Shown: one piece after another, positions 9,082 through 16,911 of the stretch
Layout of the letters: each line of letters begins with the position of its first letter
How positions within the stretch are numbered: position 1 is the stretch's first letter
Assembly: GCF_002788215.1 (NCBI RefSeq)
Contig: NZ_CP024845.1
Location: 682,001 to 746,000, forward strand
DNA length: 64,000 nucleotides
Origin: Halohasta litchfieldiae
GTDB lineage: Archaea; Halobacteriota; Halobacteria; Halobacteriales; Haloferacaceae
Reading direction: 5' to 3'
Program-made: the position numbers and the translations under genes
The notes under the pieces: model-generated
What the model was told of the DNA's origin: nothing
Seen by the model: only the letters and a program-made list of their open reading frames with translations
The model's database searches: none

Positions 9082-9884
9082 GTCGGCGGGAGCCTGAACG
9101 GTCGACCAGCTGCTCAGCGGGCAATAGCCGGTGCCTACCATTCAAACCACGACTGGCGCTAGCGAGTCTGAGCGGCGAGGCCGACGCCGCGTGGGCGGCC
9201 GCGGGGGCGGAACTCGCCGGAGCAGCCTTTATAGGTGGGGTTGCCCTTGACGAGCCGAGCCGGGAGGCTGCCCGCGCGCTCGTCGACCGGGACCGCGAGG
9301 AGTTTCTCCCAGATGATCCGCTGGCGTTTATAAGCGATCAACTGTCGACACTCGATGCGGTACCGATTCAACCGGGCGTCAACGTCAGAGCTACGCGCCT
9401 TGAGCCGATTCGACGGGCCGCAGCAATCTGTGCGGATCACGACGCAATCGTGGAGATCAACGCCCACTGTCGACAGCCTGAACTCTGCGAGGTGGGCTGT
9501 GGCGAGACGTTGCTGGCCGATACCGACCGACTAACAAAGAATGTCTCCACGGCCGCCGCCGAAGGAGCGACGGTGAGCGTCAAGGTTCGTGCCGAGGTTC
9601 CCGGCGTCGACCTGTCGACGGTTGCCGAGCGAATCGAGGATGCGGGGGCCAACATTATCCACGTCGACGCGATGGACTCTGAACCTGTGATCCGGGATGT
9701 CGCTACGGCGTCCGATTTGTTCGTGATTGCCAACAACGAGGTACGGGATCAAGAGACTGTAAGAGAGTATCTCAGCTATGGGGCCGACGCGGTCAGTGTG
9801 GGTCGACCGAGCCGGGAGCCGACCGGCGCGGTAATGCAACGGGTGGCCACCGCGGTCGACCAGTGGGAGGTACCAGTCAGATGA
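9078..9884 (+). CDS. Dus-like FMN TIM-barrel protein (tRNA-dihydrouridine-synthase superfamily)
   Basis: A 268-residue protein related to dihydrouridine synthases and dihydroorotate dehydrogenases. It has an FMN-barrel pattern: [30 protein letters not shown] near residue 130, [11 protein letters not shown] with a probable flavin-contacting Lys, [17 protein letters not shown], and a C-terminal phosphate-binding segment [11 protein letters not shown]. The Cys-rich [11 protein letters not shown] segment is unlike the catalytic Cys loop of true Dus enzymes. A tRNA role is therefore doubtful and an unassigned redox step is equally possible. The start overlaps the cofD stop (ATGA), and the stop overlaps the next start. 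Its linkage to cofD, CitG-like and DUF447 genes argues for a coenzyme-related job. Confidence 0.72.
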
Positions 9885-10753
9885 GTCGCTGGGGCGAGAC
9901 CACTGGCCGAACCACTGTTGACAACGCACAACTCGCGCTGCTACTCGAAGTGTCGGGGACCCCCAAACCGGGCAACGTCGACCGCCACCGAGATCTGGAT
10001 GACCTCCGATTCGAGCACCTCATTGCGGGGGCGGTCGGTGCCCGAAGCGGCCTCCAGTGTGCTGCCGCAGGCGATTCAGTCGGGGCCGCCTTCGAGCAGG
10101 CGGTCAGCGGGATGTCGAACCAACAGGGCGGTAACACCCAGTTCGGTTGCCTGCTGCTGTTGGTTCCACTTATAAAAGCCGCCGCCACCCAGTCGCTCAC
10201 ACCGGATGGCGTTCGGTCAGTGGTCGACGCGACGACTGTTGAGGACGCCGTCGACTTCTATCGGGCCTTCGAGCACGTCGACGTGGCGGTCGACGAGCCA
10301 CCAGCTGATGCCGACGCATTGGACGTTCGACGGGGCAGCGAGGTCGCCGCAACGCTCCGCGAGCGAGGGCTCTCGCTGTACGACATCATGCAGTTGTCGG
10401 CCGATCCCGACGACCGACTTGGTGATGGCAACGCCCGCGAGTGGGTCTCGGGTTTCGAGCGAACGTTCGAGGCGGCCGACTCGCTGGTGGCCGACGAGGG
10501 ACCAGTTGGTGACCGGACGGCTCGCGTCTTTCTGGAGCTACTGGCCGACCAGCCCGACACGTTAATCGCAATCAACCACGGTGAGGCCACTGCGCGGTCG
10601 GTCTCCGAGCGTGCGGCCGCAGTCGACGGTGATCTCGCGGCCGCCGAACGGCTCGCCGAGGAGTTCGTCGACGAGGGGTACAACCCGGGGACGACCGCAG
10701 ATATTACGGCTGCGGCCCTGTTTGTCGCACTCGAACGGGGATTAGAGGTATGA
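9881..10753 (+). CDS. Triphosphoribosyl-dephospho-CoA synthase (CitG/MdcB)-like protein
   Basis: The 290-residue protein matches the CitG fold: VSGTPKPGNVDRHRDLDDL corresponds to the family's PKPGLVD motif, then LRFEHLIAGAVGA, SNQQGGNTQFGCLLLLVPLI, and the C-terminal INHGEATARSVSERA and NPGTTADITAAALFVALE. Known CitG makes the citrate-lyase prosthetic-group precursor from dephospho-CoA and ATP, but no citrate lyase or malonate decarboxylase is present, so the archaeal protein probably acts on another nucleotide substrate. It is translationally coupled on both sides (ATGA overlaps). The residue pattern makes family assignment good; the reaction is unknown. Confidence 0.8.
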   Translation: MSRWGETTGRTTVDNAQLALLLEVSGTPKPGNVDRHRDLDDLRFEHLIAGAVGARSGLQCAAAGDSVGAAFEQAVSGMSNQQGGNTQFGCLLLLVPLIKAAATQSLTPDGVRSVVDATTVEDAVDFYRAFEHVDVAVDEPPADADALDVRRGSEVAATLRERGLSLYDIMQLSADPDDRLGDGNAREWVSGFERTFEAADSLVADEGPVGDRTARVFLELLADQPDTLIAINHGEATARSVSERAAAVDGDLAAAERLAEEFVDEGYNPGTTADITAAALFVALERGLEV

Positions 10754-11349
10754 CTGATATGCGCTCCGAGTGGCCCGTCGACCTCCGTGGAGTCACCGAG
10801 TCCATCGTCGCTACACTCGGCCCCAACGACCGGTGGAACATGGCTGCTCTTGGGCTTCACGCACCTGACGAGTTGGGCGAGCCAGTCGAAGCGACGACGT
10901 GGGGTAACACCCGGACGCGACGAAACTTTCACCGCCAGGGCGGTGGCGTGGTGCAGTTTACGGCCGATCCGCGGGAGTTCGTCGACGCCGCCGTGACGAT
11001 CCGCGAGGAAGACGAGCCAGTGTTGCCAAACGCCGACGCGTGGGTCGAAATCGAGGCGACATCAGTCGACAGCGGAAAGGATGGCAGCACCAGTTGGGAG
11101 CAATGGGAACTCCGACCCACCGAAGCGGGAATCGTCGAAGGTAGTCGTCCCCTAACGATCAATCGCGGGTTCTACGCCGTTATTGATGCCACCGTGGCGG
11201 CCTCGCGGCTTGAGGTGTCTGCCTTTGAGACAGCAACCCTGCGTGATCGGTTGGCCTACTTCGAGGAGACCGTCGAGAAGTGTGGTGGGCCACGAGAGCA
11301 TGAGGCATTCGAGACACTGAGCGAGGAGACTGGATGGCGGGAGTACTGA
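10750..11349 (+). CDS. DUF447 family protein
   Basis: This 199-residue soluble protein matches DUF447, a family found in archaea and in tetrahydromethanopterin-using bacteria. Visible features are a flavin-reductase-like split-barrel opening (GVTESIVATLGPNDRWNMAALGL), TWGNTRTRRNFHRQGGGVVQ, and RGFYAVIDATVAASRL near residue 140. The fold resembles FMN-binding split barrels, so a flavin-binding role is plausible. It is the last gene of the cofD operon, beginning in an ATGA overlap; ATG 10759 is an alternative start. The function is unassigned. Confidence 0.82.
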   Translation: MTDMRSEWPVDLRGVTESIVATLGPNDRWNMAALGLHAPDELGEPVEATTWGNTRTRRNFHRQGGGVVQFTADPREFVDAAVTIREEDEPVLPNADAWVEIEATSVDSGKDGSTSWEQWELRPTEAGIVEGSRPLTINRGFYAVIDATVAASRLEVSAFETATLRDRLAYFEETVEKCGGPREHEAFETLSEETGWREY

Positions 11350-11648: not shown

Positions 11649-13559
11649 CTACTCGTCGTCACTGTATTCGGAGAGCTTCTGCTGGAAGCCGACCCAGTGG
11701 GTAAGCTCGCCGGTGTCGTCTCTGACTGGCGCGATATCAAGTTTGTTCCAAAACTGGGTACCATCCTTCCGATAGTTTTGCAGTGTTACCGACACCGGTT
11801 CGTGGCTCTCGATCCCTTGCCGTATCTCGTCGACCGTCTCGGGATCCGACGCCGGACCCTGCATGAACCGACAGTTCCGGCCGAGAATCTCCGCACGGTC
11901 GTAGCCGGTTAGCTCACAAAACTGATCGTTCGCATACACCATCGGATTGTCATCGAGGGTCGGATCGGTGATCGCGATACCGATGGGGGCTTCGTCCATG
12001 GCCTGTGTTTTCATTTCGAGTTCGGCCTCCCGGCGGTTCCGGGCAGTGACATCCCGAGCCACGAAGAGGTGTTGGCCCGGCACGACGTTGGCTGCCCCAG
12101 CGTACTCGACCGCGCGGTCGACACCGTCTGCCCCGTGGATGGTGACTGTATCACGCCGCTCTGTGTCGGTCTGGAACTGTTGCCACTCGCTGTTGAAATC
12201 GAACTCAGCGGGCAGAAACTCTTGGAGTGATCGGCCGAGTAACTGTTTCCTGTCGAGCCCGAACACTGCGGTTGCCCCCGCGTTGGCATCGACGATCCGG
12301 CCCTCGTCATCGGTGATCAACAACGCGTCGGTTGCTTCTTCGAAGGCGGCCTTATACTGGTCGCGGGCCCGCGTGAGTTCGGTGATCCCCGACTCGCTGC
12401 CCGTCTCGGGAAGCCGTGGGATCGAGACCGTCATCGTCGTCCCTTGGTCGGTCACTGTCGTCTCGACGCTGCCGTCGTGGCTGTCGATGATCCAGTGGGT
12501 GAGCCACAGCCCGAGTCCGCTGCCGTGAACAAGCGGCGTCTCCGCGCCCTCTCTGAGAACGGTACGTTCTTGCTCGGAGAGCCCCGGCCCGTCGTCGGCA
12601 ACGTGTATTTCGAGCGCGTTTGGGAGGCTGTCGACGGTCACGGTGACGGTCGGAGCCTCGCCGCAGTGTTTGGCGGCGTTCTCGACGAGTTCCATGATCG
12701 CCCGCTCGAAGTTTGCCAACACCGCCACCGAGATGTCGTCGTCACAGTCGACCGAAATTGACGCGTTGGGATGTGACTGGGTGACTCTCTCGACGACGTA
12801 CTCGATTAGCGCAGCGATATCGGTTGGGTTTCGGTCGGCGGTTTCGCTGATTACCTGCTCCAACTCGCGGGCTTTCTGGCCCAGTCCGATGAGTTTGTCA
12901 ATGTTGCGGAGTGCGGTCTCACCGCTTTGTGTGTCATCCAACTGCTCGGCCATGATCTCAGTGTGTCCCCGAATGACTGCCAGATCGTTCCGAAGGTTGT
13001 GTCGCAGCACGCGGTTGAGCACGGTCGCAAGGTTGGCCTGCCTGGTGAGTTCGGCCTCATGTTGTTTGCGTTCGAGTTCACGTTCGAGCAGTCGAGCAAT
13101 CAGTTCGGTAAACATCGTCTCGCCGTCGCTGAAGGCATCCCGTGGATCGTCAGCGACGAAACAGACCGTGCCATACGGTTCGCCGTCGACAATAAGCGGT
13201 GTGCCGTGATAGCAGTGCAACCCGTGGGTTACGAATGCTGGATCATCAGCCCACCCCTGGTTGGGCGCGTCAGAGAGGGCAATCTGGGCGTTGCTCTCGA
13301 TTGTCCGCCGGCAGTATGTCGTCCCGAGATCAAGCTCTAAGCCCGGTGGGAATTGTCCACTGGCTGGGTCTGTGCTGGCGATGGTTTTCCAGTGATCGGT
13401 TTCTTGATTGATACGGGTTAGATGGCCGTTGTCCGCCCCCAAATACTGTGCGCCAAGCCGCAGTGCGTCCTCGGCTTTCGTCTCGAACGGCGTCTCTCGA
13501 CGAATGATCTCATACAGTTCGTTTCTCGCCTCTTGGGCAGTGTATGTGGTATCAGACAT
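11649..13559 (-). CDS. GAF - histidine kinase - PAS - LOV protein (kinase-first architecture)
   Basis: Predicted cytosolic light- or redox-sensing kinase, 636 residues. Order: GAF domain (about 20-160), phosphoacceptor helix LRHNLRND with His187, ATPase domain with ELVENAAKH (N-box, Asn294), ADDGPG and HGSGLGLWL (to about 385), PAS (395-505), then a terminal PAS (515-630) containing RNCRFMQGP, the signature of photoactive LOV domains (Cys563), plus the flavin-contacting residues in LQNYRKDGTQFWN and WVGFQQ. Sensor domains normally precede the kinase; here two PAS domains follow it. Start 13559 (MSDTTYTAQ) is preferred over an upstream extension. No response regulator is adjacent. The neighbours are a flavoprotein reductase and a second LOV-like protein. 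Confidence 0.9.
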   Translation of the reverse strand: MSDTTYTAQEARNELYEIIRRETPFETKAEDALRLGAQYLGADNGHLTRINQETDHWKTIASTDPASGQFPPGLELDLGTTYCRRTIESNAQIALSDAPNQGWADDPAFVTHGLHCYHGTPLIVDGEPYGTVCFVADDPRDAFSDGETMFTELIARLLERELERKQHEAELTRQANLATVLNRVLRHNLRNDLAVIRGHTEIMAEQLDDTQSGETALRNIDKLIGLGQKARELEQVISETADRNPTDIAALIEYVVERVTQSHPNASISVDCDDDISVAVLANFERAIMELVENAAKHCGEAPTVTVTVDSLPNALEIHVADDGPGLSEQERTVLREGAETPLVHGSGLGLWLTHWIIDSHDGSVETTVTDQGTTMTVSIPRLPETGSESGITELTRARDQYKAAFEEATDALLITDDEGRIVDANAGATAVFGLDRKQLLGRSLQEFLPAEFDFNSEWQQFQTDTERRDTVTIHGADGVDRAVEYAGAANVVPGQHLFVARDVTARNRREAELEMKTQAMDEAPIGIAITDPTLDDNPMVYANDQFCELTGYDRAEILGRNCRFMQGPASDPETVDEIRQGIESHEPVSVTLQNYRKDGTQFWNKLDIAPVRDDTGELTHWVGFQQKLSEYSDDE

Positions 13560-13723
13560 TGTTAGGGGATACGGCCATACAGGGTGCAGGTTCGCTTGGA
13601 AGCAGTTTATTACTATCTTCCTCACAGAAAGTTCTCTGAATGTGATTAGTATGGGCCTGTGTTAACAAATAACTACCTGTTGGAATAAGACTAGTAACCC
13701 AATGAGCGGACCGCTATTTCCAC

Positions 13724-15118
13724 TCAGTAGCTGTACGTTTCTTCAGTAATCTGGACGTAGCCCTGTTTTTTGAGCGACCGTTTTTTCTTTTTATATTTAT
13801 AAAGGGTCTTCGCGCCGGAGAGCCCCGACCGGAGCGTGCTCTTTTTAAGAAGGTTAGAGCCATCCGCCGCGAGCATCCCACGAACTGATTTAAATGTTCG
13901 ATCCCAGTCGCTCGGCCCATAGCCGCGGCAGAGTTCGGCAAAGGTGACGTTGCGGAGTAGTTCGTCACCGATGGCTTCGTCCCATCGGTTGTTGTACGTC
14001 GACAGATCGCCTTTCGCCGCCAACTCGCCAGCAATCGCTCCCGTCCGAACGGCAACGTGGTCGCCGCCCTCGTGGAACGCCGAGGTCGTCCCCATTGCGC
14101 CACCGGCGACCGCGATTCCAGCGTCGACGGGCGACTCGATTGGCTGTGTCGAGGAGATACTGTAAGTTTCGGTACCGTCGCGCTTGCCGCGGTCTTCAAC
14201 CAGTGGGAAGTCGGTCTCGATGTCGTACTCGTCGCCCCACTGCCACTCAAGCAGTCGATGAATGTAGGTGCTCCCCTGTGGGATACTGTCGTCGTCTGGC
14301 CGAAGGAGTTCGTACTCGTCTCGGTCGTCGACGGCATCGATGTCGAGCCCGATTGGCATCGTCAACCCAACCCGGCAGACCCGCGCGTCGTTCGGGAACA
14401 CCCACGGATAGGCCGTATGGCCGGGCATCACGCCCCACCAGAATTTGATCGACGTCTTGAGTTCCTCGAAGACCTCCTCGGGGAACCGTCGGTACTCCTG
14501 ATAGGCGATATGGTTGGCTTTCGGCGAGGCCAGTAGTTCCGAGGCCTTGGTGTCGTCGGGGAGATAGCTATCGAGCACTCGGTTAGTAACCGTACGCTGT
14601 GGGCCATCCGCGAGAATTAGGAAATCAGCCCCGATTTCCTCGCCGTTGGCCAGCGAGACGACGTGCCGCGGATCGTCCGCGGAGCCGTCTGCATCGAGGT
14701 CGCTGTCGACCTCGGTTACGCGAACCTTGAGCCGGTACTCCGCGCCGGCGTCCTCGGCGCGCTCGCGCATCCAGTCGTCGAACCGAGCGCGATTGAAGGT
14801 GTAGCCGAAATGGTCGTACGACGATTCGATACCGGTACTTCTCAGCGTGCAGGATTCCGTGGGGCCAATGAACTCCGCGCGGTCGAGGTGTTGGAGGAGG
14901 ACATCGTCGGGGAACTCATCCGGATGAATATCCATGATGTCGACCCAGTAGTCGAGAATGCCCGCCGCGTCGGTCGAATCGGGACCGAGTCCCTCGCGGT
15001 CGGCCCGCGGGACGCCCTTCTCACAGACGACCGCCGAGGCACCACCGCTGGCCGCGGCATGTGCCGCCGCCGTGCCCGCGGGGCCACCACCTACGATAGC
15101 CACGTCTACGCGTTCCAT
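13724..15118 (-). CDS. Geranylgeranyl reductase family FAD-dependent oxidoreductase
   Basis: A 464-residue flavoprotein. The N-terminal Rossmann motif VDVAIVGGGPAGTAAAHAAA binds FAD, followed by YTFNRARFDDWMRERAEDAG and a second FAD segment VAGGAMGTTSAFHEGGDHVA preceded by PVDAGI. The family saturates geranylgeranyl chains of archaeal lipids or of quinone/retinoid side chains. Several paralogues exist per haloarchaeal genome, so the substrate is not certain. A basic tail (KYKKKKRSLKKQG) may aid membrane association. It is divergent from the Cys-less LOV gene (127 bp between starts) and lies downstream of no obvious operon partner on its strand. Confidence 0.88.
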   Translation of the reverse strand: MERVDVAIVGGGPAGTAAAHAAASGGASAVVCEKGVPRADREGLGPDSTDAAGILDYWVDIMDIHPDEFPDDVLLQHLDRAEFIGPTESCTLRSTGIESSYDHFGYTFNRARFDDWMRERAEDAGAEYRLKVRVTEVDSDLDADGSADDPRHVVSLANGEEIGADFLILADGPQRTVTNRVLDSYLPDDTKASELLASPKANHIAYQEYRRFPEEVFEELKTSIKFWWGVMPGHTAYPWVFPNDARVCRVGLTMPIGLDIDAVDDRDEYELLRPDDDSIPQGSTYIHRLLEWQWGDEYDIETDFPLVEDRGKRDGTETYSISSTQPIESPVDAGIAVAGGAMGTTSAFHEGGDHVAVRTGAIAGELAAKGDLSTYNNRWDEAIGDELLRNVTFAELCRGYGPSDWDRTFKSVRGMLAADGSNLLKKSTLRSGLSGAKTLYKYKKKKRSLKKQGYVQITEETYSY

Positions 15119-15217: not shown

Positions 15218-15224
15218 TATATAA
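15218..15224 (+). promoter_or_regulatory. TATA box of the LOV-like gene
   Basis: TATATAA is centred 25 bases before the ATG at 15246, giving a leaderless transcript. The start codon lies inside the 10-bp palindrome ATACCGGTAT (15238-15247), and a second ccggtat copy abuts the TATA box, so a regulator could control this start. Confidence 0.6.
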
Positions 15225-15245
15225 CACGGTCCCCAAGATACCGGT

Positions 15246-15773
15246 ATGTCCGTCGACGCCGATCTCAAACGGATTTTTCAGGCCCAAACCAAGTCGGATG
15301 GCCCTCTCATTCCCTCGATGGCCGTGTTGGAACAGCTCGCCGACACGCTCGGTGAGATTCGTGCGAGTGCCAACCCCGATAGCTACAGGACCGATGCGGA
15401 GTCGACGCTTGACTGGAACACGCCCGCGATGGACACCGCGCCGATCGGGATGGCGATTTCGGGGCCAGCCTACGAGGACAACCCAATCGCGTACGTCAAC
15501 GATCAGTTCGAGGGGATCACGGGCTACACGGAGGTCGACCTGATCGGCGAGAACCTACGACTCCTTCAGGGACCGGAGACGGCCAGCGACCCGGTCGACG
15601 ACCTCCGGGAAGCCCTCGACATCTGGGCTCCGGTAATTGTCGAACTCCGGAACTACCGCAACGACGGCACCAAGTTCTGGAACCGCCTCGCGCTGGCTCC
15701 GATTGTCGACGTAACCGGGACGGTCAGCAATTGGGTCGGCTTTCAAGAGGATATCACCGACAGGCGGTCATAG
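15246..15773 (+). CDS. Stand-alone LOV-like PAS protein lacking the photoactive cysteine
   Basis: A 175-residue protein with a helical N-terminal cap (1-58) and one PAS domain (60-172). It closely resembles the terminal LOV domain of the kinase at 11649: APIGMAISGPAYEDNPIAYV, GENLRLLQGPE, LRNYRNDGTKFWNRLALAP and NWVGFQEDIT. The Asn, Arg and Gln residues expected to hold flavin remain, but the adduct-forming cysteine of NCRFLQ is Leu104 (ENLRLLQ). It may bind flavin without forming the classical adduct, acting as a redox sensor, a semiquinone-type photosensor or a partner of the kinase. No output domain is visible. Confidence 0.82.
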   Translation: MSVDADLKRIFQAQTKSDGPLIPSMAVLEQLADTLGEIRASANPDSYRTDAESTLDWNTPAMDTAPIGMAISGPAYEDNPIAYVNDQFEGITGYTEVDLIGENLRLLQGPETASDPVDDLREALDIWAPVIVELRNYRNDGTKFWNRLALAPIVDVTGTVSNWVGFQEDITDRRS

Positions 15774-15960
15774 GGACAGCCTACCAGCCAGTATTAACTG
15801 CCTACTCCCGGTAGATCTCGTCGTTTCTCTGCCTCGTCGTTGATCTCTTCGAATGGCTGTTCTTGTTTGCCGTGTGAGACGTGGTTCCGGAGGTGTCGAC
15901 AATGACATCGAACCTACCAGAGTGCCGCAAACTCATGTGGGTGGACGTCAATACCCGTGT

Positions 15961-16911
15961 ATGAGTGATCCGGAGATTGCAATTTTACGACAGAAAATTC
16001 ACGGCCTATCGGCTGACGACTACGCGACTGCCCTGCGGTCTCGACTGCCGGAGACCGAGATTGCGGTCGCCCAGACGCCCAGCGAGGAACGGGAACTCTT
16101 GGAACAGGTCCCGATTGCAACCGGGTTCGAACTTTCACCCGACGAGGTCGAGGCGGCCCCGAACCTGGATCTGTTCGCCTGTGTCTACGCCGGCGTCGGC
16201 CATCTGGATCTCGACGCGTTCGAAGCCAACGGGACGGCGGTTACCAACGCCTCCGGTGTCCATGGCCCCAACATCGCCGAATACGTCATCGGCTCGATTC
16301 TCTCCCACGTCCGCGGCTTCAGACAGGCGTGGCGACAGCAGGATCGTAACGAGTGGCGGTCCTACCCTGCCCGCGAGTTTCAGGGGAGCACGGTCACCGT
16401 CGTCGGGCTTGGCTCGATAGGCCAAGCCATTGTCGACCGTCTCGACCCGTTCGGCGTCGACACCATCGGCGTGCGCTACACCCCAGAGAAGGGTGGCCCA
16501 ACCGACGAGGTACTCGGGTTCGACGAGATCCAAGACGCGTTGGCTCGGACCGACTACCTCGTCCTCGCCTGTCCGCTGACCGACGAAACACGGGGTCTCA
16601 TCGACAGCGAAGCGTTCCTTACTCTGCCGTCGGACGCGTTCATGGTCAACATTGCGCGTGGTGGCGTGGTCGACACCGACGCGCTGGTGGCCGCGATGCA
16701 GGCCAACCGGATTTCGGGTGCCGCACTCGACGTGACCGATCCCGAACCACTGCCGAACGACCACCCACTGTGGGACATTGATACGGTCTCGATCACACCC
16801 CACAACGCGGGCCATACGCCGAACTACTACGAACGAACGGCCGAAATTCTGGCAACGAACGTCGAACGCTACAGGCAGGGAGAGACCGAGTACGAAAATC
16901 AGGTCGTTTAG
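15961..16911 (+). CDS. D-isomer-specific 2-hydroxyacid dehydrogenase
   Basis: An NAD(P)H-dependent dehydrogenase of 316 residues that interconverts a 2-oxoacid and a D-2-hydroxyacid. Visible features are the nucleotide loop VVGLGSIGQAI (near residue 145), the catalytic Arg in NIARGGVVDTDAL, the Glu in DVTDPEPLP, and the catalytic His in TPHNAGHT. Substrate candidates include glycerate/hydroxypyruvate, lactate or phosphoglycerate, but no ACT domain is present, so it is not a typical SerA. Start 15961 is chosen because the codons upstream are not family-like. Its stop overlaps the convergent CBS gene by 4 bp. Confidence 0.93.
   Translation: MSDPEIAILRQKIHGLSADDYATALRSRLPETEIAVAQTPSEERELLEQVPIATGFELSPDEVEAAPNLDLFACVYAGVGHLDLDAFEANGTAVTNASGVHGPNIAEYVIGSILSHVRGFRQAWRQQDRNEWRSYPAREFQGSTVTVVGLGSIGQAIVDRLDPFGVDTIGVRYTPEKGGPTDEVLGFDEIQDALARTDYLVLACPLTDETRGLIDSEAFLTLPSDAFMVNIARGGVVDTDALVAAMQANRISGAALDVTDPEPLPNDHPLWDIDTVSITPHNAGHTPNYYERTAEILATNVERYRQGETEYENQVV

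Follow-up and report, generated by a model that had tools for sequence, protein, structure and literature searches.

What might a LOV domain do once it has lost the cysteine that forms the flavin adduct, and when it is joined to no effector? The question is raised by a small gene in the window, that is, the whole 64,000-nucleotide stretch analysed here, which covers positions 682001-746000 of a single-contig haloarchaeal genome (G000, contig G000:C1; 3,332,022 bases). The gene (15246..15773, plus strand), defined by the ORF call, profile searches and a structural model, starts with ATG and encodes a protein of 175 aa, here called LOV*. Residues 1-65 make up a helical N-terminal region and residues 66-170 the LOV/PAS core; neither a C-terminal J-alpha helix nor an effector domain was found in the profile searches or in the model. 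Pfam PAS_9 matched residues 76-172 (8.9e-17). The top NCBIfam model was that of the YtvA-family blue-light photoreceptor (E 4.8e-33), and the score stayed under the cut-off of that model because the protein has the LOV half alone. By sequence, the closest solved structures were YtvA and YtvA chimeras (E ~1e-24).

The AlphaFold2 model was built from a 7-row alignment holding only the window protein and sequences from related loci. It reached a mean pLDDT of 76 and a pTM of 0.75 (pLDDT of the five models, 47-76). Helices were predicted at residues 3-16 and 25-41, followed by a weak linker at 44-55 and then by the LOV core; J-alpha was absent from the model, which ended in a short turn at 171-174. 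The N-terminal helices are tentative, since the 7-row alignment has little sequence depth there. When the model was compared with the PDB by Foldseek, the top matches were LOV domains (6ph2, aureochrome LOV and CagFbFP). Across 21 aligned sequences, the window protein among them, the start Met did not vary, and together with a short N-terminal pattern it is retained across genera.

In place of the canonical LOV motif GxNCRFLQG, LOV* has GENLRLLQG (15546..15572, plus strand), and alignment of the motifs puts the CTA codon of Leu104 (15555-15557, plus strand) at the site of the adduct Cys. The fold and the residues of the flavin cradle (GxN.R..Q, N, N, Q) are otherwise those of a canonical LOV domain. 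An earlier note on this DNA had described both the substitution and the kept cradle, and motif and alignment agree with it on both counts. Because the adduct Cys is missing, a thioadduct photocycle is ruled out. Yee et al. (2015) defined LOV* domains as lacking the Cys while keeping at least nine of ten other conserved LOV residues (PMC4682037, partial text). Nine of these ten positions are named in the available part of that paper, and the window protein holds eight of them (G101, N103, R105, L107, Q108, N136, N146 and Q167); at the ninth it has Leu106, where YtvA has Phe64. The LOV-like domains L001-L006 of the genome differ at this site: two kinases carry Cys at the adduct site, the BAT regulator and another kinase Pro, a multi-PAS protein His and the window protein Leu.

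A short LOV domain without Cys or effector could be a functionless remnant of a LOV kinase in decay. Full-length relatives of LOV* turned up not only in the window genus but also in Halonotius and across many other genera. A profile search of 391 Halobacteria genomes, which imposed no condition on the residue at the adduct site, gave, among the matches listed, 66 frames shorter than 350 aa; all 66 had Leu or Pro there. The short sequences amounted to at least 79 distinct ones among the matches listed (42 Pro, 37 Leu, 0 Cys), a lower bound on prevalence, as the searches give best matches. Loci L064-L093 were picked by a DNA pattern that demanded Leu or Pro and are by themselves no evidence for the absence of Cys. 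We recognised members of this stand-alone haloarchaeal clade by a short ORF ending at I-beta, Gly73, Tyr or Phe at 76, a non-Cys motif, Trp163 and a place in one clade. The window protein has all of these features and, unlike the other members, additionally keeps Trp145.

We placed 119 LOV domains on a tree, in which the usable short sequences, 78 in number, made up one side of a branch with support 100/99, although this tree has few columns relative to its rows and its bootstrap was not fully settled. Our two trees differ in their rows (119 and 81), and the broken short row L066 was left out of both. The rule used to flag short proteins (a tail under 45 aa) also caught two rows with Cys: L081, a LOV ending a longer frame, and L002, which is the LOV at the C-terminus of the window kinase described below. 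Both were placed with the multi-domain rows. The Cys-bearing row nearest to the short clade was a Natrinema kinase LOV (87/81), and the LOV of the window kinase grouped with the kinase of G060 (96/88). The earlier note had taken LOV* for a paralogue of the LOV domain in this nearby kinase, about half identical to it. The figure was close (46% over 125 residues), but many haloarchaeal LOVs are equally close and a special relation between the two did not emerge; with LOV* in a separate clade, we rejected the idea that it is a recent paralogue of the window kinase LOV.

Within the clade, Leu and Pro have replaced each other in six changes on the tree, at least four to five of them forced by well-supported branches, and no reversion to Cys was found on the tree. 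Selection on these genes is purifying: the NG86 dN/dS medians of six groups were 0.24, 0.26, 0.27, 0.31, 0.18 and 0.28. These values indicate apparently working genes, and on their strength we rejected pseudogene decay. The protein is short and effector-less and has lost the Cys, and two copies (L066 and L073, in the g34 genomes G221 and G279) look frame-broken, possibly through sequencing error. A remnant should nevertheless not form one clade of 79 distinct sequences across two GTDB families, with an invariant cradle and a conserved start Met, so that this explanation is very improbable. As judged from its sequences, the clade is old and well kept and is not a decayed copy of a kinase LOV.

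For the pocket, we compared 79 short with 25 Cys-bearing domains, numbered on the window protein, gapped rows being left out. Asn103, Arg105 and Gln108 were present in 79/79 short sequences, Asn136 in 78/78 and Gln167, the residue that reads the signal, in 77/77. Asn146, kept in the window protein, was less strict (70/78; Ser or Thr in 8/78). Arg121, which we take to be the second phosphate Arg, was kept in 52/79 and lost in 27/79, and Gly165 was changed to Ala in 21/77. Two positions mark the clade: Gly73 (77/79; Asp in 22/25 canonical domains) and Tyr or Phe at 76 (79/79). The Halonotius rows L018/L047 and L019/L048 have the motif GENLRCLQG, with a Cys two residues past the adduct position, and have also lost the second flavin Asn (FYS or FDS); judging by the motif, the extra Cys may reflect drift or may be a redox Cys that has changed its place.

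Two Trp positions show opposite patterns in the two kinds of domain. Trp145, which with Asn146 belongs to the FWN motif (Trp145-Asn146, 15678..15683, plus strand), occupies the position of the electron donor in canonical LOV domains. It was present in 25/25 Cys-bearing LOVs and, among the short proteins read, in the window protein alone. It corresponds to W467 of iLOV by its spacing from the conserved Gln (22 residues in both), and in iLOV-Q489D it is this FWN Trp that donates the electron (PMC5645311, excerpt). Trp163, at a flavin-contact position, was found in 77/77 short proteins, 15/25 Cys-bearing LOVs and 2/16 other non-Cys rows; the stretch from Trp163 to Gln167 lies at 15732..15746 on the plus strand, and both residues were present in each of the 77 gap-free clade members. 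Counted from the R-x-D-G turn, Trp163 is position 116 of a study of archaeal LOV domains, whose available part places it inside the chromophore site, gives Phe as its normal occupant and names Trp or Tyr there as a likely deactivator (PMC12202551). Judged from the alignment, the donor Trp thus appears to have moved from the FWN site to a place beside the flavin.

Such a Trp has a bearing on two further explanations. A protein that held free flavin beside Trp163 and signalled to nothing would be a flavin buffer or a photoprotective quencher, in the manner of the haloarchaeal dodecin, which binds flavin and quenches its excited state. The presence of Trp163 in every gap-free short sequence fits this idea, as do the lack of an effector, of J-alpha and of a conserved partner; for archaeal LOVs, Trp and Tyr at this position have moreover been singled out as strongly deactivating (PMC12202551, partial text). 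The signal-reading Gln167 is, however, as invariant as the residues that bind the flavin, and the N-terminal region is retained, both the invariant Met and the two helices predicted there. Because a buffer needs neither Gln167 nor this region, we regard the explanation as unlikely.

Alternatively, LOV* could be mainly a blue-light photoreceptor in which Trp163, Trp145 and nearby Tyr photoreduce the flavin to a long-lived neutral semiquinone that serves as the signal. There are precedents: Cys-less Vivid (VVD) and YF1 signal via the semiquinone (PMC4682037, excerpt), and Tyr and Trp donors power photoreduction in a Cys-less LOV (PMC5645311, excerpt). By residue counting, Phe88 of LOV* would stand at the position of the quenching Trp172 of BAT, which also speaks for photoreduction. 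Yet in BAT-LOV* a Trp near the flavin makes photoreduction poor (PMC4682037, partial text), and Gln167 is not replaced by an acidic proton donor. We hold a role mainly as a photoreceptor to be rather improbable.

The surroundings of the gene offer a further candidate for its role. Divergent from LOV* lies a core haloarchaeal gene for a 464-aa FAD flavoprotein of the geranylgeranyl-reductase superfamily (13724..15118, minus strand), and beyond it a GAF - HisKA - HATPase - PAS - LOV histidine kinase (11649..13625, minus strand), a lineage-specific neighbour whose LOV domain has the canonical Cys (GRNCRFMQG). The ORF positions confirm the order kinase(-) / flavoprotein(-) / LOV(+) given by the earlier note, which had proposed that LOV* and the kinase form a light/redox pair. 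In this strain, LOV* could then dimerise with the Cys-bearing LOV of the kinase and serve as a semiquinone sensor or as a decoy unable to form the adduct. PAS and LOV domains often dimerise, and the two genes adjoin both here and in G060, where a kinase 60-61% identical to that of the window holds the same place. This gap contains a kinase in only 2/9 g1/g13 genomes, the window genome and G060. In other relatives, kinase matches were 42-62% identical and lay at other loci, and of eight LOV*-bearing relatives searched, two, G048 (only 83% complete) and G057 (99%), lacked any match to the kinase at E<=1e-60. Other short LOV* genes, too, sit among different neighbours. Most of the proposed pair was therefore not borne out, and we rejected a conserved general kinase-LOV* pair. 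The kinase is unlikely to be a general partner of LOV*, and a pairing peculiar to this strain also seems to us rather improbable.

The flavoprotein fared differently. A gene for a D-2-hydroxyacid dehydrogenase (15853..16911, plus strand) lies downstream of LOV* in 9/9 g1/g13 genomes, and the order flavoprotein(-) / LOV*(+) / dehydrogenase(+) was found in 4/4 g1 and 4/5 Halonotius (g13) genomes; in H. pteroides, LOV* still adjoins the dehydrogenase, with the flavoprotein on a different contig. The flavoprotein thus adjoins LOV* in 8/9 g1/g13 genomes, whereas kinase, flavoprotein and LOV* stand together in 2/9. The suggestion that the three genes might be conserved together does not hold for the trio as such, which is not strictly limited to this strain, however, since G060 has it. 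The flavoprotein gene was present in 166/167 genomes of the GTDB family, with or without LOV*, and was absent near LOV* at 12/12 more distant short-LOV loci (flanks of ~10 kb). Because the flavoprotein is a core gene, its adjacency is a matter of local synteny, and the idea of a dedicated LOV* partner is weakened. A DUF447-family gene (10750-11349) and its upstream neighbour (9863-10753) are likewise conserved in order near the flavoprotein in 8/9 g1/g13 genomes.

Clustering of neighbours at 20 and then 60 loci gave no universal LOV* partner gene beyond the close relatives. The neighbours in several genera included TGT, an SPP peptidase, an AI-2E transporter, an AsnC-type regulator, MFS, a chemoreceptor and others; these lists are partial, as the rough gene caller mis-called some antisense frames. 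In Halorubrum (g21), a CrtI-type phytoene desaturase gene adjoined LOV* at 16 of the 21 loci read (L124, L129, L131, L136, L141, L143-L150, L152, L153 and L161). In both members that were scanned, the desaturase exceeded the NCBIfam cut-off, and at the loci inspected the two genes were convergent. A tie of LOV* to carotenoid control in this genus is possible, as is mere local synteny.

The region upstream of LOV* suggests that the gene is expressed on its own. A TATA-like box, TATATAACA (15218..15226, plus strand), lies ~27 nt before the ATG, and a similar box precedes the gene in two of its three g1 relatives. From this spacing and recurrence, the window gene probably has its own promoter and a leaderless mRNA. 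A different element, CGACAGNNGTTTG, was present at 8/11 fixed bases or better between -25 and -65 in 44 of 67 short LOV* genes (those of the 79 with a usable start and upstream stretch), compared with an average of 2.9 in shuffled controls and 6 in the stretch from -66 to -110; the consensus was chosen after the sequences had been seen, and in a few genes the start rule of the scan settled on a codon different from that of the conserved Met. Among the 67, the g1/g13 genes (the group of the window protein) gave no match. The element stood ~30-50 nt before the start at L025/L053, L026/L054, L027/L055, L058, L060, L067, L108, L113 and L119, and was weaker in g34 and Halorubrum loci. In ten genomes, the exact 13-mer CGACAGACGTTTG occurred four times, each time upstream of a LOV* gene. 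Near-matches in the same genomes numbered 1-8 each, close to the 0-8 of the reversed-pattern control, and a regulon was rejected on this ground. By its distribution, the element resembles a core promoter or operator specific to this gene and not the mark of a regulon; CGACAGNNGTTTG is perhaps an unusual core promoter.

We lean towards reading the window protein as a free-standing redox switch that uses flavin and acts in trans, with photoreduction possible. Its main support is twofold: Gln167 is as fixed as the flavin-binding residues in a clade that is without adduct chemistry, and the behaviour measured for BAT-LOV* offers a precedent. LOV* would bind FMN (or FAD or riboflavin), and reductants of the cell would reduce the flavin to the semiquinone or hydroquinone; blue light could reduce it as well, to an extent set by nearby Trp and Tyr. 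Gln167 would read the protonation of N5, and the face of the beta-sheet would change along with the N-terminal helices. Because LOV* lacks an effector domain, its output would be a reversible interaction, either with a separate partner or of LOV* with itself. We infer that LOV* is chiefly a redox sensor, because Trp163 should quench the excited flavin, as does Trp172 in BAT-LOV*. An adduct-less redox or semiquinone sensor, as first suggested for this locus, is thus plausible in view of the conserved cradle and the precedent of BAT-LOV*; the part of that suggestion that did not stand is the dedicated pair with the kinase. The changes at Asn146, Arg121 and Gly165, the broken copies L066 and L073 and the failure to find a shared partner gene count against a flavin switch. 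Among the rivals, the buffer or quencher comes first, the kinase pair and the photoreceptor follow on a par, and the remnant is last.

More tentatively, and with rather less than even confidence, we propose that the clade as a whole is an ancient haloarchaeal redox switch on the LOV fold. It would have given up Cys for Leu or Pro for good, have exchanged the donor Trp of FWN (~11 Angstrom away in iLOV) for the flavin-contacting Trp163, and come to signal in trans without an effector, and in most genera it would carry a promoter element of its own that is largely specific to the gene. If this is true, the clade is a large natural lineage in which adduct-free LOV signalling can be probed. One may ask of it whether LOV domains began as redox sensors or reverted to them, and whether the position of a Trp decides between the sensing of redox and of light.

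Most work on Cys-less LOV signalling has used engineered mutants, together with a single natural domain, BAT-LOV*. Dozens of small natural Cys-less LOVs under purifying selection are direct evidence that such proteins can do without the adduct in whatever role they have. Yee et al. (2015) reported ~70 natural LOV-like entries without the Cys, its replacements including Ala, His and Pro (PMC4682037, excerpt). Archaeal LOV proteins were surveyed in 2014; that survey named LOV-HTH proteins and kinases and noted that BAT is without the Cys (PMC4844311, excerpt). The archaeal LOVs of Lake Diamante include two with Pro and one with Phe in place of Cys, treated as ungrouped or exceptional single sequences; like LOV* they are archaeal with the Cys replaced, and the available part of that report describes no stand-alone Leu/Pro clade (PMC12202551). 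Nor did the open-access papers listed and read contain a description of such a haloarchaeal clade, although the supplement of Yee et al. might list some members.

With YtvA and canonical LOV domains, the window protein has the fold and the flavin cradle in common; it is without the adduct Cys, the thioadduct photocycle and the STAS domain. The bacterial short LOV proteins PpSB1-LOV and DsLOV resemble it in being stand-alone and effector-less with short flanking helices. These bacterial proteins carry the adduct Cys, whereas the short haloarchaeal LOVs read have neither the adduct Cys nor, as predicted, a C-terminal helix. A further close counterpart is BAT-LOV*, haloarchaeal like LOV*, with a non-nucleophilic residue (Pro) for Cys and the other LOV residues kept. 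It binds flavin, is readily reduced by chemical means and changes its conformation, and its Trp172 blocks photoreduction (PMC4682037, partial text). Its flavin is redox-responsive, as that of the window protein would be. The window genome has a BAT of its own, encoded by a separate gene (L001), with Pro at the site and the domains Response_reg, PAS_9, GAF_2, BAT and HTH_10; the window protein matches PAS families only, with no BAT domain and no HTH_10 C-terminus. BAT is a large receiver-PAS-GAF-HTH protein, whereas LOV* is a free domain of 175 aa from a different clade, with Leu at the adduct site and a clade-fixed Trp163, and without a DNA-binding domain.
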